From the NCBI RefSeq assembly GCF_904846695.1, contig NZ_CAJHBR010000001.1:372001-436000 (forward strand): a DNA stretch of 64,000 nt, given 5' to 3'. Below, in pieces: positions 10,371 through 57,042 of this stretch. This DNA is from Psychrobacter urativorans. GTDB lineage: Bacteria > Pseudomonadota > Gammaproteobacteria > Pseudomonadales > Moraxellaceae. Below the pieces are notes generated by a model that was not told the origin of the DNA, made no database searches, and saw only the letters and a list, made by a program, of their open reading frames with translations. Position 1 is the first letter of the stretch. Every line of letters starts with the position of its first letter. The translations under genes and the position numbers were made by a program.

Positions 10371-11231
10371 CTACAAATAGCTATTTTTATACTCTTCAGG
10401 AATATAAACTGGTGATAGCTTATCTACATTTTCTTGAATCAAAGCAATCCTATTCTTACTAGAAATAATTGGAAATTTTTCAATATCAATAGCTTTTAAA
10501 TTATCGTTTTCTACCATATTCTCAGAAATATAGTTTATGTATTCTTGACTTGAGAAACAGATTTTAAAAATATTTTTGTTCAAAAGGTCAGTCAATACTT
10601 CTGTATCATCCGAACTTTTAATATGAATTAGTCTGTTTCTAATATCTAACAGCTCAATTAAATCAGACCAAAAACTCATCTGTTTAATCTGTGGCACCTG
10701 ATATATATCTGTTACTATTAGATTTATCTTTTCTTTCCAGGATATGTACCTTTCAATTTGTTCTTTATTATAAACCTCTGTTTTTCTTGGAGTTGTTTTG
10801 CTCCATATGAAATCGTTAGGTATTGATAGGTTAATAAATGTTTCTAAAGCTGTGAAGCTAAATATAATAGCTTTTTGGGCATGTTCGATAAAGTTGTAAA
10901 CTTCTAATGTATGTTCTATCAATAAGTTATTTATAGATCCGTCATCAAGCTTCTGTTTAGAATGTAAGTTCTGAATTTTACTATTTAATGCTTTAATTTC
11001 TATCAAAGCTTCGTTTGCAATATTGATTTGTAAAGCAACCATACTTGGAGTAATGAACCTTACCTTATTGTTTTTGATATCTACTTCTTCAATACCTCTA
11101 GAAAGAAATTTGTAGTCTTTAATGTCATTTGGCACCAGTATTTTTGGAGGAAGAAATCTCATATCTACAAGCTCTAATGAGTTCTCGTCAAATTTAGATA
11201 TAAGAACCATTCTCTTAGTTTTCGTTTCCAT
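10371..11231 (-). CDS. HEPN-motif protein, putative RNase, unknown role
   Basis: I do not recognise this protein as a named family. It is 286 residues from the ATG at 11231; the longer open frame to 11291 only runs into a REP palindrome. Two features resemble HEPN domains: a helix with AIIFSFTALETFIN near residue 125, and RNRLIH at residues 198-203, which fits the R-N-x3-H (RX4-6H) motif of HEPN ribonucleases. HEPN proteins often act as toxins or antiphage RNases; applying that here is inference. The gene is clearly more AT-rich than its neighbours, which suggests transfer. It lies between two REP elements, next to the RAYT gene and on the same strand. No antitoxin partner is visible. Confidence 0.6.
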   Translation of the reverse strand: METKTKRMVLISKFDENSLELVDMRFLPPKILVPNDIKDYKFLSRGIEEVDIKNNKVRFITPSMVALQINIANEALIEIKALNSKIQNLHSKQKLDDGSINNLLIEHTLEVYNFIEHAQKAIIFSFTALETFINLSIPNDFIWSKTTPRKTEVYNKEQIERYISWKEKINLIVTDIYQVPQIKQMSFWSDLIELLDIRNRLIHIKSSDDTEVLTDLLNKNIFKICFSSQEYINYISENMVENDNLKAIDIEKFPIISSKNRIALIQENVDKLSPVYIPEEYKNSYL

Positions 11232-11268
11232 ATTTTTACTCAATTTTAAGGTTGATATTGATAGCTGA

Positions 11269-11291
11269 GTAGGGTGCGCCCCGCGCACCAT
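11269..11291 (+). repeat. REP palindrome, copy 2
   Basis: This has the same GTAG foot and arms GGTGCGC and GCGCACC as copy 1, with loop CCC. It starts 38 bases upstream of the HEPN-like start codon and lies 7 bases beyond the RAYT stop. It is the reverse complement of copy 3. Confidence 0.87.
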
Positions 11292-11297
11292 TAAATA

Positions 11298-11852
11298 TTA
11301 CTCTAACCTATCCGAAAAACTCTCTGAAAAATCAATCAAATTCTCACCCCAATCTGCCGAATAATTACCAACTTTCAAATAACGGTGAAAGCTTGAATAC
11401 GGCCAATCTATTGCTCTTTTAACCAATCCATGTTTAAAAGGGTTATAGTGTATGTAATCCATATATTTTAGAAAATCTGCTTCATTTTTAATCTGATGCT
11501 CAAAGAATCGACGCTGCCATATTCCTCTCTCATTCCTACTAACCTTTGAATGGCTCAACTCATGTGTTGGCAAATGATACTGCGGACAAGCTTGTGTCGT
11601 TAGTCGTTTTATCTGTGACCAACGCATACTATAACCTGCATCGTTTTCAGGCATCTGCCAAATGCAATGCAAATGATCAGGCAATTGTACCCATGCAATA
11701 ATTTCAAAAGGATATTGTTGTTGAATGAGTTTTATACTATTTCTAAGAGCTTGTAAAAAGTCCTCGTTGCAGAGTATTTGTCTTCGATTATAAGATACCA
11801 ATGTAAAAAAATAGGCAGCGCCCTCTGTGTATGAGCGGATATATTGCGGCAT
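11298..11852 (-). CDS. REP-associated tyrosine transposase (RAYT, IS200-like Y1 family)
   Basis: This single-copy Y1-type HUH nuclease belongs to the domesticated transposases that act on REP palindromes. The HUH pair is visible as LPDHLHCIW with H60 and H62. The catalytic tyrosine is probably Y133 in YIHYNPFKHGLV, and the family block DWPYSSFHRY follows. The 184-residue length is normal for a RAYT. Matching REP palindromes lie 7 bases past its stop and 63 bases before its start, in opposite orientation, and each carries a GTAG foot, the tetranucleotide recognised by characterised TnpA-REP enzymes. The reading frame looks intact. It is transcribed in the same direction as the HEPN-like gene. 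Confidence 0.88.
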   Translation of the reverse strand: MPQYIRSYTEGAAYFFTLVSYNRRQILCNEDFLQALRNSIKLIQQQYPFEIIAWVQLPDHLHCIWQMPENDAGYSMRWSQIKRLTTQACPQYHLPTHELSHSKVSRNERGIWQRRFFEHQIKNEADFLKYMDYIHYNPFKHGLVKRAIDWPYSSFHRYLKVGNYSADWGENLIDFSESFSDRLE

Positions 11853-46627: not shown

Positions 46628-49600
46628 ATGAGGTTTAAACATAGCATGACATACAAAAAACGCTTTAATACTAGTAGTGCTTATGGTCAACTTATTATAT
46701 TAGTGTTTTTGCCGATATGCTTGTTAGCGGCAGTAGGTGGTATTTTGGTGTTTTACGAAACCATGCGTGCCAGCAACTCAGAACAAGAAGCCTTAGCTGA
46801 AGCGGTATTGATCCGCTATAAGCCCATGGTGACAGAGCTTATTCCCGATCTACAGTTTGGGATGTCATCGTCTGATAGTAACCTGACTAATCCTGATAGC
46901 AAGTCGCAAGAAGCAATGGCGACCCTAGCTGCTATTCGCGATAAGCTTAGTCGTATGCAGTCTGAGCAACATGTGCAGCGTATTGCTATTATCGATGAGG
47001 ACAATAAAGTACTAGCTAGCGTCGGCTATGGGGTTAACGAAACTTGGCCAGCTGTAGACAGTAATCAACGTGCTTTATCTAAACAAGCGACCTCAGTGGG
47101 AACGGCTTACGGTAGTATGTTGGGCGAGTTTAAAGGCCAAAAGTTATGGCTGCTCATTGATATGGATAACGAGCCTTTATATATTGCGCGTTACCGTATT
47201 GCAATGGCCTTGGTTATTACCGGTTTATTCACCATATTGATATTACTACTCAGCCTTAATATCTATGCTAAGCGTTGGATTGCTCCTATCTATGAGCTAC
47301 GCTTGCGCTTGCAACGTACCCATGTCGATAATCTATATAAGCCTATTCTGGTCGAATCTGACGGTGAGTTGAACTTATTACAACAGGATTTAGTCAAAGC
47401 CTTACGCCGTCTGCATAGTAGCTTTCAAGAGCTCAAAGATCATGCTGAACAAACCGAAGATGACTTGCGTTTGGCCTTTGATGAGATGGAGATGCAGAAC
47501 ATCTCTATTCGTAATGCACGCGATGTCGCTATTTCAGCTAGCGAGTCAAAGTCGGCTTTTTTGGCTAATATCAGTCATGAGCTACGTACGCCACTCAACA
47601 GCATTGATGGGTTTATTAACTTGCTGGCGCGCCACGGTGAGCTAAATTCTGAGCAAGATTTATATGTACAAACTATCCGTAAATCCTCAGCGCATCTGCT
47701 AGCTTTAGTCAATGATGTGTTGGATTTTTCTAAAATTGAAGCGGGTAAATTGCTCCTTGATAGCCACGAGTTTGATCTGTATGACACTATCTATGATGTC
47801 GTAGATATGCTGTCACCAGTCTCTGCAGAAAAGGGCCTACGTACCGCCGTATTGTTTTATAACGATGTGCCAATGCGTATCAATGGCGATGCCATGCGCC
47901 TCAAACAAATACTGACTAATATCGTCGGTAATGCCATTAAATTCACAGACAGTGGAGGAGTGGTAGTGCGAGTGAGCTTGGACGACTATCAAGAAAACTA
48001 CCTTATGATTAGCGTGCAAGATAGTGGCAAAGGTATCTCAGAGTCGGATCAAAAAATGCTGTTCCAGAGCTTTAGTCAAGGTGACCCTTCTATTACTCGT
48101 CAGTATGGTGGCACAGGATTAGGCCTAGTTATTTCCAAGCAATTAACGCGATTGATGGGTGGTGATATAGGCTTTTATGACAATGCGCGCGAGAATATTG
48201 ACAATCAAGGGGCGACATTTTGGTTTCGGATGCCCGCTCATGTTGACGTATTAAAAGCGGCGACTGGTCAGACTATTGCCTTACCAGTACTAGCACCTTT
48301 GGCTAGCGCTGCCGATGAGTTTCATGTGTTAGTTTGGATCAATCACACAGCTTCTAGACAAGTACTAAAAGCCAGCTTGCAAAACTTGCCGATCAAATTG
48401 ACCCAAGCCAACTCTTTACCCGGGGTACTCGAATCGCTAAAGGAGCAAGGGAACTATTGGGATTGGGTGATCGTCGATAATGATACTCAAGATGACATGA
48501 TGGCCTTGCTAAAACAAATTCGCTTACATTATCAAGGCAAGCTGGCGGTATTTGGTTATCAAGTTGCCGCTGATCAGGCGTTATTGACTCGTTATCATGC
48601 CAATATATTATATGAGCCGTTAGACAAGCGTCAGCTGTACGCTATGCTAGATACTCAAAAGAGCAATACCCCTATAAAAGCCCAGCTACCAACTTGGCAA
48701 GGGGTTACAGTGTTGGCAGTTGACGATCACTTACCGAACTTACTAGTATTGGACGCGCTACTGAGTGAGCTTGGTATTAAGGTAGTGACTGCTAGCAGCG
48801 GCTTTGAAGCTATTGAAATTATCAGTAAGCAACAGTCAACAAGCCCCCAAACACTTAAGCCTAAACCTGATAGCTTATCAAAAAAAACACAAATATCAAA
48901 AGCGGAAACTCGTGAGCAAGTCAGTAGTATGTCCATGTCACAAAGCACTAGTGAAGACAACCTACGTATTGAGGATAAAGACCGTATTAAGCTTATCTTT
49001 ATGGATATCCAGATGCCCCGTATGTCAGGGCGTGAAGCTGCAGCACAAATACGAAAAATAGAGCATCCTGATAGTCATATTCCTATCATTGCCTTGACGG
49101 CACATGGTCTAGCCGATGAGCGTGATAAGCTCATTGCCAGTGGTATTGACGATTATGTAGGCAAACCTATCAGCCAACCACAGCTACTACAAATGCTGCA
49201 AAAATGGCTGGGACGTACTACTAATATCAATGCCGATGGTTTAGCAGCGCCTAATAATGAAACGCCAGTGACTAGTGTCAATATGCTTAAGCATAGCTTA
49301 GCTATAGATGAAGAACTAAGCGATGGCTATAGCGCTGAGGCCAATATGACTGGTAGTGAGAGTCGTATAGGGGTTAGCAGCATTAATAGTGATGTCAGTA
49401 TGGCTACTAGTGCCAAAGACACAGCACTGCAAGCTGATAAAAGAATAGCTAGACCTTTAGCCCTAAAAAAGATTAGAGACGACTACTTGCGTGATAGCCA
49501 GCCAAATGATGGGTATTGGCATAAGACTACGCAAGCTCTGCAACCACGTAATCAAAGTCTGCCTAATGAACAGCAGCTATCAGAAATGACTACTGATGCA

Positions 49601-50134
49601 GAGCAAGGTTCGCAGTTGCATAGCCATCCTAGCCATCTCAGTCCTATGCTAGTCAATCAGTATGCCTCGCAGCAACCATTAATGGTTACTAATGAAAGTA
49701 CTATATTGAAAGATAATTCAGACACTTTAAGTATTCTGGATTGGGAAGATGCTTTGACTCGTGCCGCAAACAAGCCAGATCTAGCTGCCAAATTAATTCT
49801 TATGATGCTGGAAACTATCGCTGATGAAAAAGAGGCACTATCGCAAGCGTGGCAGGCACGTGATCGCTATGAGCTAGCACAGATTGCCCACCGTATTTTA
49901 GGGGGCAGTCGCTATACTGGCGTACCTCAACTGCGCCAAACTAGCCAAAACCTAGAAGACAAGTGCCTACTAAACTTGCAACATACTACACCGGCACAAT
50001 TTGCGATGCTCAAACCTTATTATGAAGCGCTTTTATTGGCATTAACTCGGCTACAAACGCTTGATTTGTCTTCTTATACTCAGCTGAACTACCATCGACT
50101 TAATGAAAATGATATGAACTGGAAAATGATTTAA
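46628..50134 (+). CDS. gacS: GacS/BarA-type hybrid sensor histidine kinase
   Basis: This tripartite kinase would phosphorylate a GacA/UvrY response regulator that drives Csr/Rsm small RNAs. Two membrane helices (about residues 20-44 and 190-213) flank a periplasmic domain. The H-box ISHELRTPLN gives H317, and the ATP-binding domain has GNAIKFTDSG and GGTGLGL. A degenerate receiver (about 565-675) lacks the phospho-acceptor Asp in the usual setting. A full receiver follows with D793 (FMDIQMP) and K846. A C-terminal Hpt has H1088 in IAHRILGGSR. The true receiver is split by an insertion of roughly 55 Ser/Lys/Gln-rich residues before D793, and a 190-residue disordered linker precedes the Hpt. 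The cysM neighbour supports GacS. Confidence 0.93.
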   Translation: MRFKHSMTYKKRFNTSSAYGQLIILVFLPICLLAAVGGILVFYETMRASNSEQEALAEAVLIRYKPMVTELIPDLQFGMSSSDSNLTNPDSKSQEAMATLAAIRDKLSRMQSEQHVQRIAIIDEDNKVLASVGYGVNETWPAVDSNQRALSKQATSVGTAYGSMLGEFKGQKLWLLIDMDNEPLYIARYRIAMALVITGLFTILILLLSLNIYAKRWIAPIYELRLRLQRTHVDNLYKPILVESDGELNLLQQDLVKALRRLHSSFQELKDHAEQTEDDLRLAFDEMEMQNISIRNARDVAISASESKSAFLANISHELRTPLNSIDGFINLLARHGELNSEQDLYVQTIRKSSAHLLALVNDVLDFSKIEAGKLLLDSHEFDLYDTIYDVVDMLSPVSAEKGLRTAVLFYNDVPMRINGDAMRLKQILTNIVGNAIKFTDSGGVVVRVSLDDYQENYLMISVQDSGKGISESDQKMLFQSFSQGDPSITRQYGGTGLGLVISKQLTRLMGGDIGFYDNARENIDNQGATFWFRMPAHVDVLKAATGQTIALPVLAPLASAADEFHVLVWINHTASRQVLKASLQNLPIKLTQANSLPGVLESLKEQGNYWDWVIVDNDTQDDMMALLKQIRLHYQGKLAVFGYQVAADQALLTRYHANILYEPLDKRQLYAMLDTQKSNTPIKAQLPTWQGVTVLAVDDHLPNLLVLDALLSELGIKVVTASSGFEAIEIISKQQSTSPQTLKPKPDSLSKKTQISKAETREQVSSMSMSQSTSEDNLRIEDKDRIKLIFMDIQMPRMSGREAAAQIRKIEHPDSHIPIIALTAHGLADERDKLIASGIDDYVGKPISQPQLLQMLQKWLGRTTNINADGLAAPNNETPVTSVNMLKHSLAIDEELSDGYSAEANMTGSESRIGVSSINSDVSMATSAKDTALQADKRIARPLALKKIRDDYLRDSQPNDGYWHKTTQALQPRNQSLPNEQQLSEMTTDAEQGSQLHSHPSHLSPMLVNQYASQQPLMVTNESTILKDNSDTLSILDWEDALTRAANKPDLAAKLILMMLETIADEKEALSQAWQARDRYELAQIAHRILGGSRYTGVPQLRQTSQNLEDKCLLNLQHTTPAQFAMLKPYYEALLLALTRLQTLDLSSYTQLNYHRLNENDMNWKMI

Positions 50135-51233: not shown

Positions 51234-52505
51234 ATGGTCTCCGCTATGTCTGCTCCAAAACCTACTTTATCCTCTAACACTGCTGCTCCTACTAGAGTGC
51301 GCTCGGCGGAGCTGCCTGTCGCCTGGATTATGATGTTAGGACTTATTGTGTCAGTCGGGCCATTATCTATCGATATGTATTTGCCAGCGCTACCGGCTAT
51401 GGCTGATAGCTTTGGGGTATCAACCGCATTTATGGCCAACTCAGTACCAGCCTACTTTATAGGTTTAGTATTTGGTCAGCTGTTTTATGGACCCCTTAGT
51501 GATCGGATTGGCCGCGTCAAACCCTTATACTTCGGTATGACGCTATATATAATTGCCTCTATAATCTGTGCTACTACTAATAATGAATACGTTTTGTTCG
51601 CTGGTCGTACGGTACAAGCACTGGGCGCTTGTGTAGGAGCAGTAGTGACTCGTGCAGCCATTCGTGATCGTCTTACTGCTAAGCAAACGGCCAAAGCCTT
51701 TTCTATCATGATATTGGTAATGGGTTTAGCACCGATATTAGCACCCTCTCTTGGGGCATTATTTTTACGGTTTTTTAACTGGCACTCCATCTTTTGGTTC
51801 TTAGCGGCTTTTGGTGCTCTGAATTTACTATTGACTAAGTTTTTCTTCTTTGAAACCTTGACTGAAGAGAATCGTAATGTGCAACCTGCTAAAGAAGTAT
51901 TGAGTCAGTACTGGGACTTGTTAAAGGATCCTACCTTTAGTTATCCAGCGATTGGCGGTGGCTTATTAATGGGCGCTATGTTTGTATACATTAGTGCCGC
52001 TTCTGAGTTAATCATGGATACTTATCGTATTTCAGCCACTCATTTTGGTTGGATATTTGGGCTTAATGCTGCTGGATTTGTAGGCTTAACGCAACTTAAC
52101 CAGTGGCTTACTAATCGCTTCCGTATTCTGAGTATTTTGCGCTTTGGGGCGATGATGCAGGTTATTTCTGCTGCAGCCCTGTTCGTCATCGGTTTAGTCC
52201 TTGGCACCGATGCTTGGCTACCTTTAGTGTTGGCCTGTATCTTTTTCTGTATTGCCGGTTTAGGTCTGACCCAACCGAATGCCTCTGCTATCGCCTTAGC
52301 CTTTCAGAAACGTCGTGCCGGTATGGCCAGCGCTTTACAAGGCTCGTTGATGTTTTCAGTAGGTATTTTTGGTGGTTTATTACTGAACTTATTCCCCGTT
52401 AATCCGGTACTAAAGATCGGTACGGCCATGTTCGTACTCATGAGTTTAGGTTGCTATTTGATTTGGCAAATAGATCGCAATCTAAATCTTGATGATGCTG
52501 AGTAA
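51234..52505 (+). CDS. Bcr/CflA family MFS drug-resistance exporter
   Basis: This 423-residue inner-membrane protein has twelve hydrophobic segments typical of the major facilitator superfamily. The motif GPLSDRIGRVKPL between helices 2 and 3 is motif A. SIDMYLPALPAMADSFGVS near helix 1 is characteristic of the Bcr/CflA subfamily (bicyclomycin, chloramphenicol and related exporters). The substrate cannot be deduced. The start ATG at 51234 adds about 20 polar residues before helix 1; an internal ATG at 51246 is also possible. A terminator follows at 52557. Confidence 0.9.
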   Translation: MVSAMSAPKPTLSSNTAAPTRVRSAELPVAWIMMLGLIVSVGPLSIDMYLPALPAMADSFGVSTAFMANSVPAYFIGLVFGQLFYGPLSDRIGRVKPLYFGMTLYIIASIICATTNNEYVLFAGRTVQALGACVGAVVTRAAIRDRLTAKQTAKAFSIMILVMGLAPILAPSLGALFLRFFNWHSIFWFLAAFGALNLLLTKFFFFETLTEENRNVQPAKEVLSQYWDLLKDPTFSYPAIGGGLLMGAMFVYISAASELIMDTYRISATHFGWIFGLNAAGFVGLTQLNQWLTNRFRILSILRFGAMMQVISAAALFVIGLVLGTDAWLPLVLACIFFCIAGLGLTQPNASAIALAFQKRRAGMASALQGSLMFSVGIFGGLLLNLFPVNPVLKIGTAMFVLMSLGCYLIWQIDRNLNLDDAE

Positions 52506-53427: not shown

Positions 53428-55686
53428 ATGGATGCATCGCCACAATCGAGTACCAACACTCCTAAGAGTCGCTATACCTCAATTATCATCTCAGTCATTA
53501 TTTTCTTGATTTTAATTTCAGGCATTTTGGTTACTAGTATCTATAACTCACTCAAAATCCTTGATTTACGAGCTGCAGTATCACTGAGTACCAATCTTCG
53601 AAGCGACATTCAAACCCTAACTCAAGATATATATCTACTCAACACTATGCGCAGCGGTCAACAGCCTGCTAGTGTTACGCAACCACAAGCTATAAAAGTT
53701 GCCAAATCCACTCAAGAAATTGATGAAAAAATTACCGTTCTAAAGCAGGGTGGTGATGTCAAGATTGGTGGCGATCAAGTCGCTTATGAAACTTTGACGA
53801 AGTCTGAACAGATAAAATTCGTTGAAGAAACCTCAAATCTATGGGCGCCTTACAAAGATCAGGCCATAAAGTTTGTAAGCTCGCCAATAGTGGTAAGCTC
53901 AAACTTTCTAAAACAGAGTTTTGGTAAGCCTACCGAAGGCATTTACGATAATGTTACTGGTCTTACCAATAATTTGAATAGTGAAAATGGTAAACGTGCT
54001 GGATTTTTGCGAAATATTCAAACTTTTGGTATCTCCTTTGCGATCTTATATTTTATTATCTTTGTATTATATTTTGTACGTAGATTGAAGGCGTCCGATG
54101 CAGAGCTTAGAGCGGCCCGTCGTGAGACTCAAGAGATTATGCAGACGGTCAATACTGGACTGTTCTTACTGGATAAAGATCTAAGTATTGGTCAGCAACA
54201 CTCCAAAGCACTCACCACCATTATTGGGACACCAAGCCTAGCAGGTGAGAATTTTACTAACGTCTTACGTGGCCGTATCTCTGATACAGACCTCAATACC
54301 ACGCAGCAATTTATTGAGCAGCTTTATAACCCTCGGGTTAAAGAAAAGCTAGTCGATGCTCTAAATCCTCTACATAAAGTCATGTTGCATAATGCCTCGA
54401 ATGAAAAAGGGGCTAACAGTCGGTTTTTGGACTTTAAGTTTTCTCGGGTTTATGAAGGTAAAAGCATTGCGCGTATTTTAGTTAACGTCAACGATGTTTC
54501 AGATGCTGTTTACTTAGAACAGCGTTTAGAGAAAGAACGTAGCCAAAACGATATGCAAATCGAGATGCTTACTACTATTCTTAATGTTGAACCGACGATT
54601 ATTAATGAGTTCATTAGCAATACCAAATTGTACATCGAAAAAATGAATAGTATTTTGAAAAATCCTGGCAGCTCACAATATGAGCTGGAGAATAAGCTGA
54701 AAGCGATTTATCGTGACATGCATAGCTTAAAAGGCGAGTCCTCTGCTCTTAAACTGCACGGCTTTACTAAAATCTCATCGGAAGCCGAAGATAAGTTGCA
54801 GGCGTTACAGAACCAAAGCGAGCTAGCAGGCAATGACTTCTTGGCTTTGGCTATCCATTTAGATGAATTATTAATGTTATCTGAGACTATCGAAACCTTA
54901 GGCCAACGTATAAATCGAGAATTACCTACTAGCAGTAAAAATAGCAGTGTAATTAGTAGCGATAGCAGTGTAATTAGTAGCGATAATAGCAGGGCGGGAA
55001 GTGTAGTAACACTCAATGCCACAAAACCAGCTGATGATATTGTTGAAACCATGCCGCTAGTGGCTGTCACTAATGATCTAGATGAAGCAGACCTCGAATC
55101 AGGTATAGATATCGACTTAGACGATGAGCCAAACCGTCATCTCCTCTCTTATTATCAAGACTTTGCTCAAGATATCGCTGTAAGACAGGATAAGCAAGTA
55201 CAGCTCAATAGCGAAACTTTAGCGAAAACCGTTATCCCTGAGCATCTCAGAACTTCAATCAAAGAGATCAGTGTGCAGTTATTACGTAATGCTGTAGTAC
55301 ATGGGATTGAAGCGCCTGCTGCTCGGCAGTTAGAGGGCAAACCTACTATCGGCATCATCGATATAGAAGTTAAAAATGAGGGTCAAGACTTCATCATCAC
55401 CCTACAAGATGATGGTCAAGGTATCGACTACGACAGTATTCGTCACAAACTAGTGGCAATGAATCGTTATAGCGTAGAGCAAGCTAGCAATTTGAATCGC
55501 ACTGACCTGTTAAAGCAGCTTTTTTCTTCTGGGTTCTCTACTAAAGATGACGCAGATGAAGATGGTGGTCGCGGTGTTGGCTTGGATATTATCAAAGCTC
55601 AAGTCAAAGAACATGCTGGTAAGCTCAATGTAAAAAGTGAGTTGGGTAAGATGACGCGCTTTGTCATTACCTTACCAGCAGCTTAA
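53428..55686 (+). CDS. Membrane-anchored CheA-like histidine kinase lacking a CheW-like domain
   Basis: This 752-residue protein couples an extracytoplasmic sensor to a CheA-type kinase. Transmembrane helices at about residues 17-39 and 199-217 flank a periplasmic domain of about 160 residues. A PAS-like region follows (residues about 235-365). An Hpt/P1 domain has H432 in DMHSLKGESSAL. The ATP-binding domain has N621 in LLRNAVVHGIE, DDGQGID and GRGVGLDI near 715. The NxxxHGIE form of the N-box is the CheA type, not that of ordinary kinases. The protein ends right after the ATPase domain, so the CheW-like P5 domain is missing. A Ser/Asn linker at 500-530 holds a 21-base tandem repeat. It heads a four-gene unit. 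Confidence 0.88.
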   Translation: MDASPQSSTNTPKSRYTSIIISVIIFLILISGILVTSIYNSLKILDLRAAVSLSTNLRSDIQTLTQDIYLLNTMRSGQQPASVTQPQAIKVAKSTQEIDEKITVLKQGGDVKIGGDQVAYETLTKSEQIKFVEETSNLWAPYKDQAIKFVSSPIVVSSNFLKQSFGKPTEGIYDNVTGLTNNLNSENGKRAGFLRNIQTFGISFAILYFIIFVLYFVRRLKASDAELRAARRETQEIMQTVNTGLFLLDKDLSIGQQHSKALTTIIGTPSLAGENFTNVLRGRISDTDLNTTQQFIEQLYNPRVKEKLVDALNPLHKVMLHNASNEKGANSRFLDFKFSRVYEGKSIARILVNVNDVSDAVYLEQRLEKERSQNDMQIEMLTTILNVEPTIINEFISNTKLYIEKMNSILKNPGSSQYELENKLKAIYRDMHSLKGESSALKLHGFTKISSEAEDKLQALQNQSELAGNDFLALAIHLDELLMLSETIETLGQRINRELPTSSKNSSVISSDSSVISSDNSRAGSVVTLNATKPADDIVETMPLVAVTNDLDEADLESGIDIDLDDEPNRHLLSYYQDFAQDIAVRQDKQVQLNSETLAKTVIPEHLRTSIKEISVQLLRNAVVHGIEAPAARQLEGKPTIGIIDIEVKNEGQDFIITLQDDGQGIDYDSIRHKLVAMNRYSVEQASNLNRTDLLKQLFSSGFSTKDDADEDGGRGVGLDIIKAQVKEHAGKLNVKSELGKMTRFVITLPAA
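54943..54984 (+). repeat. 21-base perfect tandem repeat inside the CheA-like gene
   Basis: Two perfect copies of a 21-base unit starting AGCAGTGTAATT encode SSVISSD twice, followed by a partial third copy. It lies in the flexible linker between the Hpt and ATPase domains and keeps the reading frame. Confidence 0.85.
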
Positions 55687-55706
55687 TAAAGGATAATAAG
55701 TGCTCC

Positions 55707-56069
55707 ATGTATAAACTAATGATTGTTGATGATTCAAATATTATTCGAAATCGTATTCAGCGTGCTTATGATTCAGGACAGTTCATGCTAGTGGCGACTG
55801 CTAACAGCGGGGTACAGGCTATTGAAAAATTCAATATCCACTGTCCTGATGTGGTGACTATGGATTTGACTATGCCGCAAATGGATGGGCTTGAATGTAT
55901 TGAAAGAATAATTACTCTTGACCCTGAAGTACGTATTTTAGTGGTGTCTGCTTTATCGGATAAAGCTACAGGAATTCATGCTTTGTCGTTAGGAGCTAGT
56001 GGCTTTTTATGCAAACCGTTTTCAGAAGACGAGCTTATCGAATCATTGTATGAGTTAGTACAAGAGTAA
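55707..56069 (+). CDS. CheY-like single-domain response regulator
   Basis: This 120-residue protein is a lone receiver domain. The acidic pocket is D8 and D9 (IVDDS), the phospho-acceptor is D53 (TMDLTMPQMDG), the switch residue is S81 and the conserved lysine is K103 (CKPF). There is no output domain, so it must act by binding a partner protein, as CheY does. It starts 20 bases after the CheA-like gene and ends 6 bases before the first CheX-like gene, so the genes are surely co-transcribed. Psychrobacter is regarded as non-flagellated, so the target is unlikely to be a flagellar switch; pili are one possibility. Confidence 0.92.
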   Translation: MYKLMIVDDSNIIRNRIQRAYDSGQFMLVATANSGVQAIEKFNIHCPDVVTMDLTMPQMDGLECIERIITLDPEVRILVVSALSDKATGIHALSLGASGFLCKPFSEDELIESLYELVQE

Positions 56070-56075
56070 CGTGAC

Positions 56076-56549
56076 GTGAGCTATGAAATGGATGCGATTA
56101 TGAAAGAGAAAAAGTTACAAGTTTTTTTACAGATCATCTCCAACTATTTTGCTCAGCTAGGTGGCGAAGCCCTTAAGGTGGAGACCCCTTATCTATCAGC
56201 TGATAAGCAGCCTGAAGTCTATGACTATACTGGGATAATCGGGGTGTCAGGAGGGCAAAAAGGCGTAGTATATTTTTCAGCTACCCAAAGCTTGTTGTGC
56301 TGCATTTTACAGAGTTTAGGGGAGAGCGATGCCAGCGAAGAGAACCTAGTAGATATTGCTGGAGAGGTGGCTAATACTATCGCTGGTAATGCACGCAAAG
56401 AGTTTGGGGCTGAGTTTCATATCTCCGTACCTTTGGTATTTAAAGGAGTACCACAGAGTATCGTTTTACCCAAAGATGAGCGTTCCTTTATCATTCCTAT
56501 TGCATGGCGCGGGCAGCTTGGAGAGATTGTACTCTGTTTTCAGAAATAA
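56076..56549 (+). CDS. CheX-like chemotaxis phosphatase, first copy
   Basis: CheX/CheC-type proteins dephosphorylate CheY-P. This 157-residue protein has the signature DIAGEVANTIAGNARKEFG with E97 and N100 in the catalytic E-x2-N position, and G104-N105. The GTG at 56076 is the furthest start, but MKEKKLQVFLQII from the ATG at 56100 aligns better with the start of the second copy, so the true protein may be 149 residues. No strong ribosome-binding site separates these options. Coupling with the CheY-like gene, 6 bases upstream, is likely. The two copies are about the same length and share ETPYL/DTPYL and the E-x2-N block. Confidence 0.82.
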   Translation: MSYEMDAIMKEKKLQVFLQIISNYFAQLGGEALKVETPYLSADKQPEVYDYTGIIGVSGGQKGVVYFSATQSLLCCILQSLGESDASEENLVDIAGEVANTIAGNARKEFGAEFHISVPLVFKGVPQSIVLPKDERSFIIPIAWRGQLGEIVLCFQK

Positions 56550-56592
56550 ACACTCAGCCCATTAATGATGGGTAAATGGACACTAAAGTATT

Positions 56593-57042
56593 ATGGTCAA
56601 AGTTGAAAAATTAGGGGTGTTTTTAAGCTCGATTAGCGCATTTTTTGCGCAAATTGCTGACACTCAGATTGCTATTGATACCCCTTATTTGCATGATAAC
56701 AAAAGTGCGATAGGCTATGATTACAGCGGTATTATCAAGATAACAGGCCCTGTAGAAGGCTATGTCTATATCAGTGCGCCAAGCACTATGCTAAGAGCAC
56801 TGATAAACATAATGGACGAGTCTGACTCTTCTCTTAAAATGATGAAAGATTTACTGGGTGAAATGGCCAATACTATCGCCGGTAATGCTCGTACTGAATT
56901 CGGCACTGATTTTATCATTGCTCCACCAGAAATCGTAGTAGGAGCCCCTAGTGCTGCCTACTTGCCAAAAGATCGTAATAGCTATATTACCCCGTTTAGC
57001 TGGGGTGGTTATCAGGCGGTGATAGGGATTTGTATTACTTAG
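56593..57042 (+). CDS. CheX-like chemotaxis phosphatase, second copy
   Basis: This 149-residue paralogue of the previous gene shows LLGEMANTIAGNARTEFGTDF, with E90 and N93 in the CheX/CheC catalytic positions and N98. Other shared blocks are VFLSSISAFFAQ and YDYSGIIKITGPVEGYVYIS (quoted in part). Divergence between the copies is large, so the duplication is old. Two phosphatases with one receiver are unusual; CheX is a dimer in known cases, so a heterodimer is possible. It ends the four-gene unit, 44 bases after the first copy. No clear terminator is seen before rpsB. Confidence 0.82.
   Translation: MVKVEKLGVFLSSISAFFAQIADTQIAIDTPYLHDNKSAIGYDYSGIIKITGPVEGYVYISAPSTMLRALINIMDESDSSLKMMKDLLGEMANTIAGNARTEFGTDFIIAPPEIVVGAPSAAYLPKDRNSYITPFSWGGYQAVIGICIT

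Follow-up and report, generated by a model that had tools for sequence, protein, structure and literature searches.

A membrane-anchored kinase with a CheA-type core, its own CheY and CheX proteins in Psychrobacter and relatives

Introduction

The histidine kinase CheA is commonly treated as inseparable from CheW and from receptor arrays. In the accessible part of one survey (PMC10542144) CheA is composed of Hpt, P3, P4 and CheW domains, the CheW domain is found in 100% of CheA proteins, and HATPase_c together with CheW serves as the mark of CheA. Here we describe a four-gene locus of Psychrobacter urativorans, lying within a stretch of 64,000 nucleotides (contig 1, 372001-436000 of the genome; the whole stretch is hereafter the window), in which a membrane-anchored kinase with a CheA-type core is followed on the same strand by a receiver-only CheY and two CheX-like proteins. 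We consider it probable that this cassette is a self-contained, receptor-fused CheA-type two-component switch, in which phosphorylated CheY (CheY~P) acts on a protein.

A 2016 study, PMC4754876, reports in its accessible part cheY and cheX genes in 16 analysed Psychrobacter strains that have no other chemotaxis or flagellar genes; in that part the kinase is not named and the cheY-cheX pair is not explained. The cassette accounts for this published puzzle. Among the listed titles and abstract openings of open-licence PMC papers we found no description of the cassette as a system, nor any described orthologous system with the same architecture; the latter would have refuted the sequence-only reading of the locus, which was made without database searches. 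The cassette is likewise not described in the accessible parts of PMC8789113, PMC6600141, PMC2577667 and PMC2829493.

The kinase core

Pfam identifies an Hpt domain at residues 393-481 of the window kinase (24.4 bits, just under the cut-off of 24.6) and HATPase_c at residues 616-751. We aligned this kinase with 33 others that are 24-67% identical to it, drawn from a set of 46 non-redundant kinases, and both domains were found in all 34 members, Hpt at E<=0.01 with the window protein included. The residues H432, K435, G436, N621, H625 and G626 are invariant across these divergent kinases, as are D661, D662, G663, G665, G714, G716 and G718. The Hpt histidine H432 and the N box residue N621, both named in the sequence-only reading, are present in the window protein and unchanged in all 34 kinases. 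Neither they nor D53 of the CheY are lost in the aligned orthologues. The ATPase region matches the P4 domain of Thermotoga maritima CheA (1i58) at 9.4e-27 by sequence and at 1.7e-14 by Foldseek, and CheA P4 structures come first among the Foldseek matches of the predicted model. No HisKA domain was detected in the window kinase by Pfam.

The kinase open reading frame (ORF) ends directly after P4, and neither PF01584/CheW nor H-kinase_dim is among the 14 Pfam families matched in the 34 family kinases, whereas a control CheA from locus L100, scanned alike, gives all four domains including CheW and H-kinase_dim. A CheW-like P5 domain, already missed in the window kinase by the sequence-only reading, is thus detected in none of the 34 members. 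The P3 domain is a different matter. It measures about 60 residues in CheA and HMMER profiles are known to miss it, according to the accessible part of PMC10542144, so the argument for its absence is carried by the length of the linker between Hpt and P4. This linker is shorter than 60 residues in 26 of the 34 kinases and only 31-36 residues long in 10 of them; judged by length, such linkers are too short for the two P3 helices of 26-28 residues.

As P5 and P3 are not detected in the family, its members are not CheA by the definition of the survey, despite the CheA-type ATPase, and because surveys of this kind mark CheA by HATPase_c plus CheW the cassette kinases would be missed by them. In a tree of P4 domains a single branch with support 100/99 divides 29 cassette rows from 4 CheA or ChpA rows; the tree holds only these 4 CheA rows, the motif filter having dropped 8 of 37 kinases and 1 CheA. 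The domain comparison indicates that this kinase works with a CheA-type core yet is not a CheA.

Some observations on the window protein weigh against the receptor-fused reading. Its own Hpt-P4 linker is 94 residues long, and the case for an absent P3 there consists of the lack of a profile match, low conservation and a linker modelled mostly as coil. The AlphaFold2 (AF2) model of the full kinase is poor (mean pLDDT 57), with the PAS-like and Hpt parts at low confidence. For the structure alignments near-identical kinases were dropped, which kept 16 of 40.

The membrane sensor and the PAS-like region

A Kyte-Doolittle scan backs the two membrane helices, bracketing about 160 periplasmic residues, that had been read from the translation. 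The AF2 model of the N-terminal 235 residues (mean pLDDT 86) consists of the first transmembrane helix (TM1), a four-helix bundle with a small beta-hairpin, and the second helix (TM2). Compared with solved structures by Foldseek the model has no match at E<=0.001, the best being the McpN nitrate-receptor domain at 7.2e-3. A profile built from the sensor domains of 22 of the 34 aligned kinases does match the McpN ligand-binding domain 6gcv (2.5e-4) and PilJ (0.0041), and by Pfam 13 of the 34 family kinases carry PilJ (PF13675) and a single one carries dCache_1. The top VIA row for the model is PilJ (7zjr, Z 15.9), and further among the listed folds is XylFII-LytSN, in which a binding protein sits on a kinase sensor of the bundle type.

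Assignment of the window sensor to the PilJ/McpN kind is weakened on two counts. The VIA scores of PilJ, PcaY_PP (Z 15.7) and other helical bundles are tied, so the fold alone settles no single sensor family, and the window's own sensor has no Pfam match of any kind, PF13675 being absent even at E<=1. The window sensor has diverged past Pfam detection of PF13675.

The sensor also changes fast within the genus. Between the window kinase and 39 other Psychrobacter kinases (L034, L044 and short kinases left out) mean identity is 20% for the sensor, 38% for the Hpt-P4 linker, 67% for P4, 79% for Hpt and 84% for the PAS-like region, which is the best-conserved part; CheY has a mean identity of 89% over 42 comparisons. 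These identities, high in the core and low in the sensor, suggest purifying selection. Psychrobacter kinases carry two very different periplasmic domains, one of the type of the window, L004-L006 and L099 and the other of the type of L009 and L035, on a nearly constant core.

The region between TM2 and Hpt had been called PAS-like, and here the conservation of the region is borne out while the label itself is weak. The window protein has no Pfam match in this region, PAS_9 and PAS_4 are each found in 3 of the 34 family kinases (best 2.8e-6), and the family profile of the region finds nothing significant among solved structures (best E 0.8).

CheY and the CheX pair

The CheY protein contains D8, D9, D53, S81 and K103, and its best solved match is T. 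maritima CheY (1tmy, 2e-22). Pfam and the translation agree that it is a receiver with no output domain. Both CheX-like proteins exceed the Pfam PF13690 cut-off of 27 bits, and both keep the E-x2-N pair that had been noted in them: E97-x2-N100 in CheX1, numbered from the GTG start, and E90-x2-N93 in CheX2. The longer D-x3-E-x2-N is likewise intact in both, and [DS]xxxExxN, which we take to be the CheX catalytic motif, is found in 124 of 126 CheX proteins from other loci. By analogy with known CheX chemistry, CheX1 and CheX2 are putative phosphatases. They are the only two CheX proteins of the whole genome.

In a tree of CheX proteins the Moraxellaceae CheX2 sequences form a single clade (support 100/100), from which we conclude that the second CheX goes back to one old duplication in Moraxellaceae. 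The CheX proteins of L087 and L088 group with cassettes from outside Moraxellaceae and, on this placement, may be separate acquisitions. One locus speaks against a uniformly catalytic role for CheX, as the catalytic Asn is gone from 2 of the 3 copies in L174. These have E-x2-S in its place, one in each of two tandem cassettes (L174:6742-7191 (-) and 10900-11400 (-)), and from the substitution they could possibly be non-catalytic regulators. The accessible part of PMC8789113 mentions another CheX, VC0377 of V. cholerae, with a putative role.

Distribution of the cassette

Of the 44 named Psychrobacter loci, 43 have tblastn matches in the order kinase-CheY-CheX1-CheX2 before rpsB, an arrangement well beyond what chance would give. 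The exception is L034/L008 (Psychrobacter sp. TAE2020), in which the kinase has several stops and CheX2 has no match. Its cassette appears to be decaying, with a CheX1 that has no usual start Met, and is otherwise very close to the window. Not all copies are open frames, the kinase of L034 and the CheY of L044 being the cases in point.

A strong kinase match (E<1e-100) is present in 50 of 66 Psychrobacter genomes, and among 70 Psychrobacter genomes CheX occurs in two copies in 54, in one copy in 2, below threshold in 1 and not at all in 13. For the 43 genomes common to both searches, two CheX proteins accompany the kinase in 32 of 33 kinase-positive genomes, the remaining one (G080) having one CheX and a broken kinase gene, while 9 of 10 kinase-negative genomes have no CheX match and the tenth (G174) has only a sub-threshold CheX remnant. 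Within Psychrobacter the kinase and CheX are retained jointly or lost jointly.

In the wider family, sampled as 20 Moraxellaceae loci, the picture is more varied. Both CheX proteins are found in 6 of 20 loci (L083, L085, L090, L092, L093, where the kinase is in two frames, and L099), CheX2 only in L081 and L096, and a CheX1-like protein alone in L087, in L088 and in one cassette of L089, the second. L082, L084, L086, L091, L094, L097 and L098 have no CheX, nor has the other cassette of L089, the first. The two remaining loci are L095, with a weak kinase-like frame that has no Pfam domains, and L100, which encodes an ordinary CheA. Conservation of the four-gene order in Moraxellaceae, a check suggested by the sequence-only reading, is seen within Psychrobacter; in the family at large the number of CheX genes varies. 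The CheX-less form (7 of 20 loci and one of the two L089 cassettes) is paralogous and counts against a cassette in which CheX is an obligate part, since it means that CheX is not indispensable to the family.

In 7 of the 20 Moraxellaceae loci (L082, L085, L086, L089, L092, L094 and L098) a periplasmic-binding-protein gene lies directly upstream on the same strand, 9-67 bases away. Two of these proteins are SBP_bac_3 and five are Peripla_BP_4, with starts that look lipoprotein-like by eye.

A compact kinase-CheY-CheX cassette recurs in other gammaproteobacterial families. Searches with CheX at E<1e-20 gave 11 of 194 genomes of the order (the source genome and a second Psychrobacter included) and 11 of 321 genomes of the class (the source genome included), while a sample of 299 genomes of the phylum at a cut-off of 1e-15 gave only the cassettes of G000 and G470 and a stand-alone CheX, L179. 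From a set of 10 loci outside the genus, 8 have kinase, CheY and CheX on one strand, and L133 and L134 are clusters with CheA-like and CheW-like genes, the former also with an MCP-like (methyl-accepting chemotaxis protein) gene. In a second set the cassette is present in 12 of 12 loci (in L170 by reading) and twice in L174. The kinase is split between frames in L127 and in L165, where it lies beside a run of N, and L126 is cut by a contig end. Cassette genes overlap or are separated by at most about 60 bases, the sole exception being a gap of 114 bases in L174, and one CheX per cassette is usual outside Moraxellaceae. The proposed fusion of sensor and kinase with its own CheY and CheX is accordingly not peculiar to one genome.

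Among the neighbouring genes read, which are a selection, flanking genes differ from locus to locus, and a conserved output gene next door was rejected as an explanation: the neighbours differ at each locus and L168, L176 and L097 are single cases. In L168 (8113-9357 (+)) a gene for a receiver-Ser/Thr protein kinase starts a few bases after the cassette CheX, in L176 (5500-7212 (+)) a PP2C-Ser/Thr kinase gene adjoins the cassette, and in L097 (7023-9177 (-)) roadblock/LC7 and small GTPase-like genes lie upstream of a CheX-less kinase-CheY pair. L082 (9359-11600 (-)) has genes similar in size to this roadblock/GTPase set, of which only those of L097 were scanned. A plasmid-borne module was also considered and rejected, as the kinase of L176, one relative's, has no plasmid match at E<=1e-20.

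Alternative explanations

The sequence-only reading placed the kinase in a setting without CheW or receptors, which holds for the locus itself. Elsewhere, on contig 16 (L077), lies a Pil-Chp cluster with PilG, PilH, PilI, PilJ and ChpA (named by reading), and in it are the only two CheW-family matches and the single MCP, PilJ, of the genome; the pilG-pilH-pilI-pilJ-chpA set is a locus apart from the cassette. With its own CheA, MCP and PilG/PilH, this cluster does not clearly use the cassette kinase, and we found no other CheW/MCP cluster that does. Use of the Pil-Chp CheW by the kinase through a P5 domain can be rejected, no P5 having been detected in the kinase or in the other 33 family kinases.

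The cassette could still be an accessory arm of Pil-Chp, with the kinase feeding PilG and PilH, or CheX1 and CheX2 draining them, or both. Such an arm would suit a sensor family of the PilJ/McpN kind in a genome whose only MCP shows MCPsignal and no PilJ domain, and 23 of the 25 cassette-bearing genomes tested give a strong PilM match. Type IV pilus (T4P) genes are indeed present in nearly all cassette-bearing genomes tested, a point that counts against an output independent of pili. T4P genes are, however, about as common where the cassette is missing (PilM strong in 27 of 29 cassette-negative genomes), so PilM does not discriminate and there is no association. These 29 genomes were hand-picked and defined by having no strong kinase or CheX match, and may hide the CheX-less form. 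The cassette also has its own highly conserved CheY, and no match to the PilG/H/I/J or ChpA of this genome was found beside the cassettes L081-L099, L125-L132 and L165-L176, where other pil genes were not searched. Genome G026 (99% complete, 90 contigs) keeps a cassette (L088) and has no PilO, no FliM and only a weak PilM match (1.3e-7) resembling the secondary PilM matches of other genomes; G685 has no PilM and a partial PilO match. From one such genome, G026, it follows that neither the flagellum nor T4P alone is the family-wide output. We regard an accessory Pil-Chp arm as unlikely. The PilJ protein of the genome (L077:8296-9684 (-)) is 463 residues long and shows MCPsignal alone, with no PilJ-type ligand domain detected, whereas the sensor of the cassette kinase is PilJ-like.

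A decaying locus, in which the kinase is a degenerate or phosphatase-only relic that signals no longer, would fit the stops in the L034/L008 kinase and its missing CheX2, as well as the 16 of 66 Psychrobacter genomes that have no strong kinase match. In the window the genes are open and all catalytic residues intact, and the conserved core beside a fast-changing sensor points to purifying selection, which makes a relic very improbable.

A flagellar side-pathway, with CheY~P binding to FliM the way it does in classical chemotaxis, although CheY and CheX are chemotaxis families, the best solved match of CheY is T. maritima CheY and FliM occurs in 10 of 25 cassette-bearing genomes, is refuted for this organism, whose genome lacks FliM unless the assembly (99.99% complete) has lost it, and is the least credible of all as a general output, since FliM is absent from 15 of the 25 cassette-bearing genomes and present in a share of the cassette-negative ones that is no lower (16 of 29), and the accessible part of PMC4754876 finds no flagella-assembly genes in the analysed Psychrobacter strains.

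Gene layout and surroundings

All four ORFs lie on the + strand at the positions first read from the sequence (Table 1). Their tight packing on one strand holds as well, except that the gap of 6 bases between CheY and CheX1 (the other two being 20 and 43) is probably too small. CheX1 probably starts at ATG 56100, not at GTG 56076, since the Met at 56100 is kept in 8 of 9 Psychrobacter homologues compared (it is missing in L034), and the gap would then be about 30 bases.

Table 1. Features of the cassette, with positions counted from the first letter of the window
Feature	Positions	Strand	Basis
Membrane-anchored CheA-type sensor histidine kinase, 752 aa	53428..55686	+	ORF, Pfam, P4 sequence and Foldseek matches
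TM helix 1, about residues 17-38	53476..53541	+	Kyte-Doolittle scan
Periplasmic sensor, about residues 39-198	53542..54021	+	Predicted four-helix bundle with beta-hairpin (109-120), PilJ/McpN-like
TM helix 2, about residues 199-220	54022..54087	+	Kyte-Doolittle scan
Cytoplasmic PAS-like region, residues 236-365	54133..54522	+	Conservation; PAS_9 in 3/34 members
Hpt with phospho-acceptor H432 (codon 54721-54723)	54580..54873	+	Pfam Hpt in 34/34 family kinases
CheA-type P4 ATPase: N box N621, G boxes D661-G665 and G714-G718	55138..55683	+	Pfam, structures, alignment
Receiver-only CheY-like response regulator, 120 aa	55707..56069	+	ORF, Pfam Response_reg
CheX1, putative CheX-like phosphatase	56076..56549 (GTG start)	+	Pfam CheX 5.7e-21
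CheX2, second putative CheX-like phosphatase	56593..57042	+	Pfam CheX 6.3e-21

The cassette is flanked on its 5' side by a major facilitator superfamily gene that ends at 52505 and on its 3' side by rpsB-tsf (gene names assigned by reading). The 920 bases 5' of the kinase contain no ORF longer than 34 residues and no periplasmic-binding-protein gene, and promoter and terminator scans of the locus gave chance-level results. The ORFs that overlap 48-62 kb and have 90 residues or more include, on reading, no MCP, CheW, CheR or CheB gene, CheR and CheB having been looked for by this reading and not by a genome-wide search. Further upstream (46628-50134 (+)) the window encodes a hybrid sensor kinase that combines HisKA, HATPase and receivers with a C-terminal Hpt, presumably BarA/GacS-like by its layout, which is also upstream in 41 of the 44 named loci; the sequences of the other 3 start closer to the cassette and do not cover it.

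Proposed mechanism and significance

Having weighed these alternatives we return to the receptor-fused switch. In the window it would begin with the periplasmic sensor, a four-helix bundle of PilJ/McpN type, which would detect a signal directly, while in some relatives the signal may arrive by way of a periplasmic binding protein, as the neighbouring genes suggest. For the latter XylFII-LytS offers an analogy, as we take it to be a system in which a binding protein provides the input of a kinase. The signal would then pass through TM2 and the helical and PAS-like region to the Hpt domain and the CheA-type ATPase of the same chain, and the membrane segments and helical linkers would take over dimerisation, for which CheA has P3. 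Following known CheA chemistry, the ATPase would phosphorylate H432, the phosphoryl group would move to D53 of the adjacent CheY, and CheX1 and CheX2 would remove it from there. The diffusible CheY~P would be the output and, as it has no output domain, must act by binding a protein. Our guess is that this is a non-flagellar protein, for example a second-messenger enzyme or a regulator of surface behaviour, any particular class of which is improbable when taken singly.

Sequence and comparison give the architecture, the intact catalytic residues, the lack of detectable P5 and P3, the gene order and the joint loss of kinase and CheX in Psychrobacter; the self-containment that had been proposed for this phospho-switch is likewise supported, as an indication from comparative genomics. 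A bolder proposal, which we advance tentatively and find slightly harder to accept than to doubt, is that the cassette stands for a separate and so far undescribed class of bacterial signalling system: a fusion of a receptor with a CheA-type P1-P4 core that has a dedicated CheY and CheX and a modular sensor (PilJ-like, Cache or binding-protein-coupled), operates without arrays, CheW or adaptation enzymes, and has a conserved output that is neither the flagellum nor T4P. If true, this class would show how the CheA catalytic core can serve in a two-component kinase of the ordinary kind. The contribution of P3, P5 and the array would become directly testable with a CheA-type core that has a receptor, a CheY and a phosphatase to itself.

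Comparison with known systems

The closest relative in terms of catalysis is CheA, the class II histidine kinase, which shares with the cassette kinase a phospho-His in a separate Hpt domain, a CheA-type P4 and a receiver-only CheY partner. The cassette kinase differs in having its own membrane sensor and no P3 or P5/CheW domain, and its locus has no CheW or MCP partner. A classical sensor histidine kinase with a single-domain regulator is similar in that sensor and kinase form one chain and the cognate receiver adjoins, but in the cassette the phospho-His is in an Hpt domain, the ATPase is CheA-type, CheX is dedicated and HisKA is not detected. The helical sensors of PilJ, McpN and NarX-NarQ (PF13675) resemble the cassette sensor in the predicted four-helix periplasmic bundle and in the matches of the family profile; those sensors feed into the signalling domain of an MCP or into a kinase of the HisKA type, whereas the cassette sensor is coupled in-chain to Hpt and a CheA P4.

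Chemotaxis of the CheY-CheX type in Thermotoga and Borrelia has in common with the cassette a receiver-only CheY, the CheX family and the E-x2-N pair. In the cassette, however, CheY and CheX go with a fused sensor kinase and not with a che cluster, and CheX is duplicated in Moraxellaceae. Stand-alone CheX proteins (L179 and the solved relatives 3iic and 3h2d) share the CheX family. In the 3.5-kb locus of L179 CheX is accompanied by neither a kinase nor a CheY, while the cassette CheX proteins adjoin both and are more alike.

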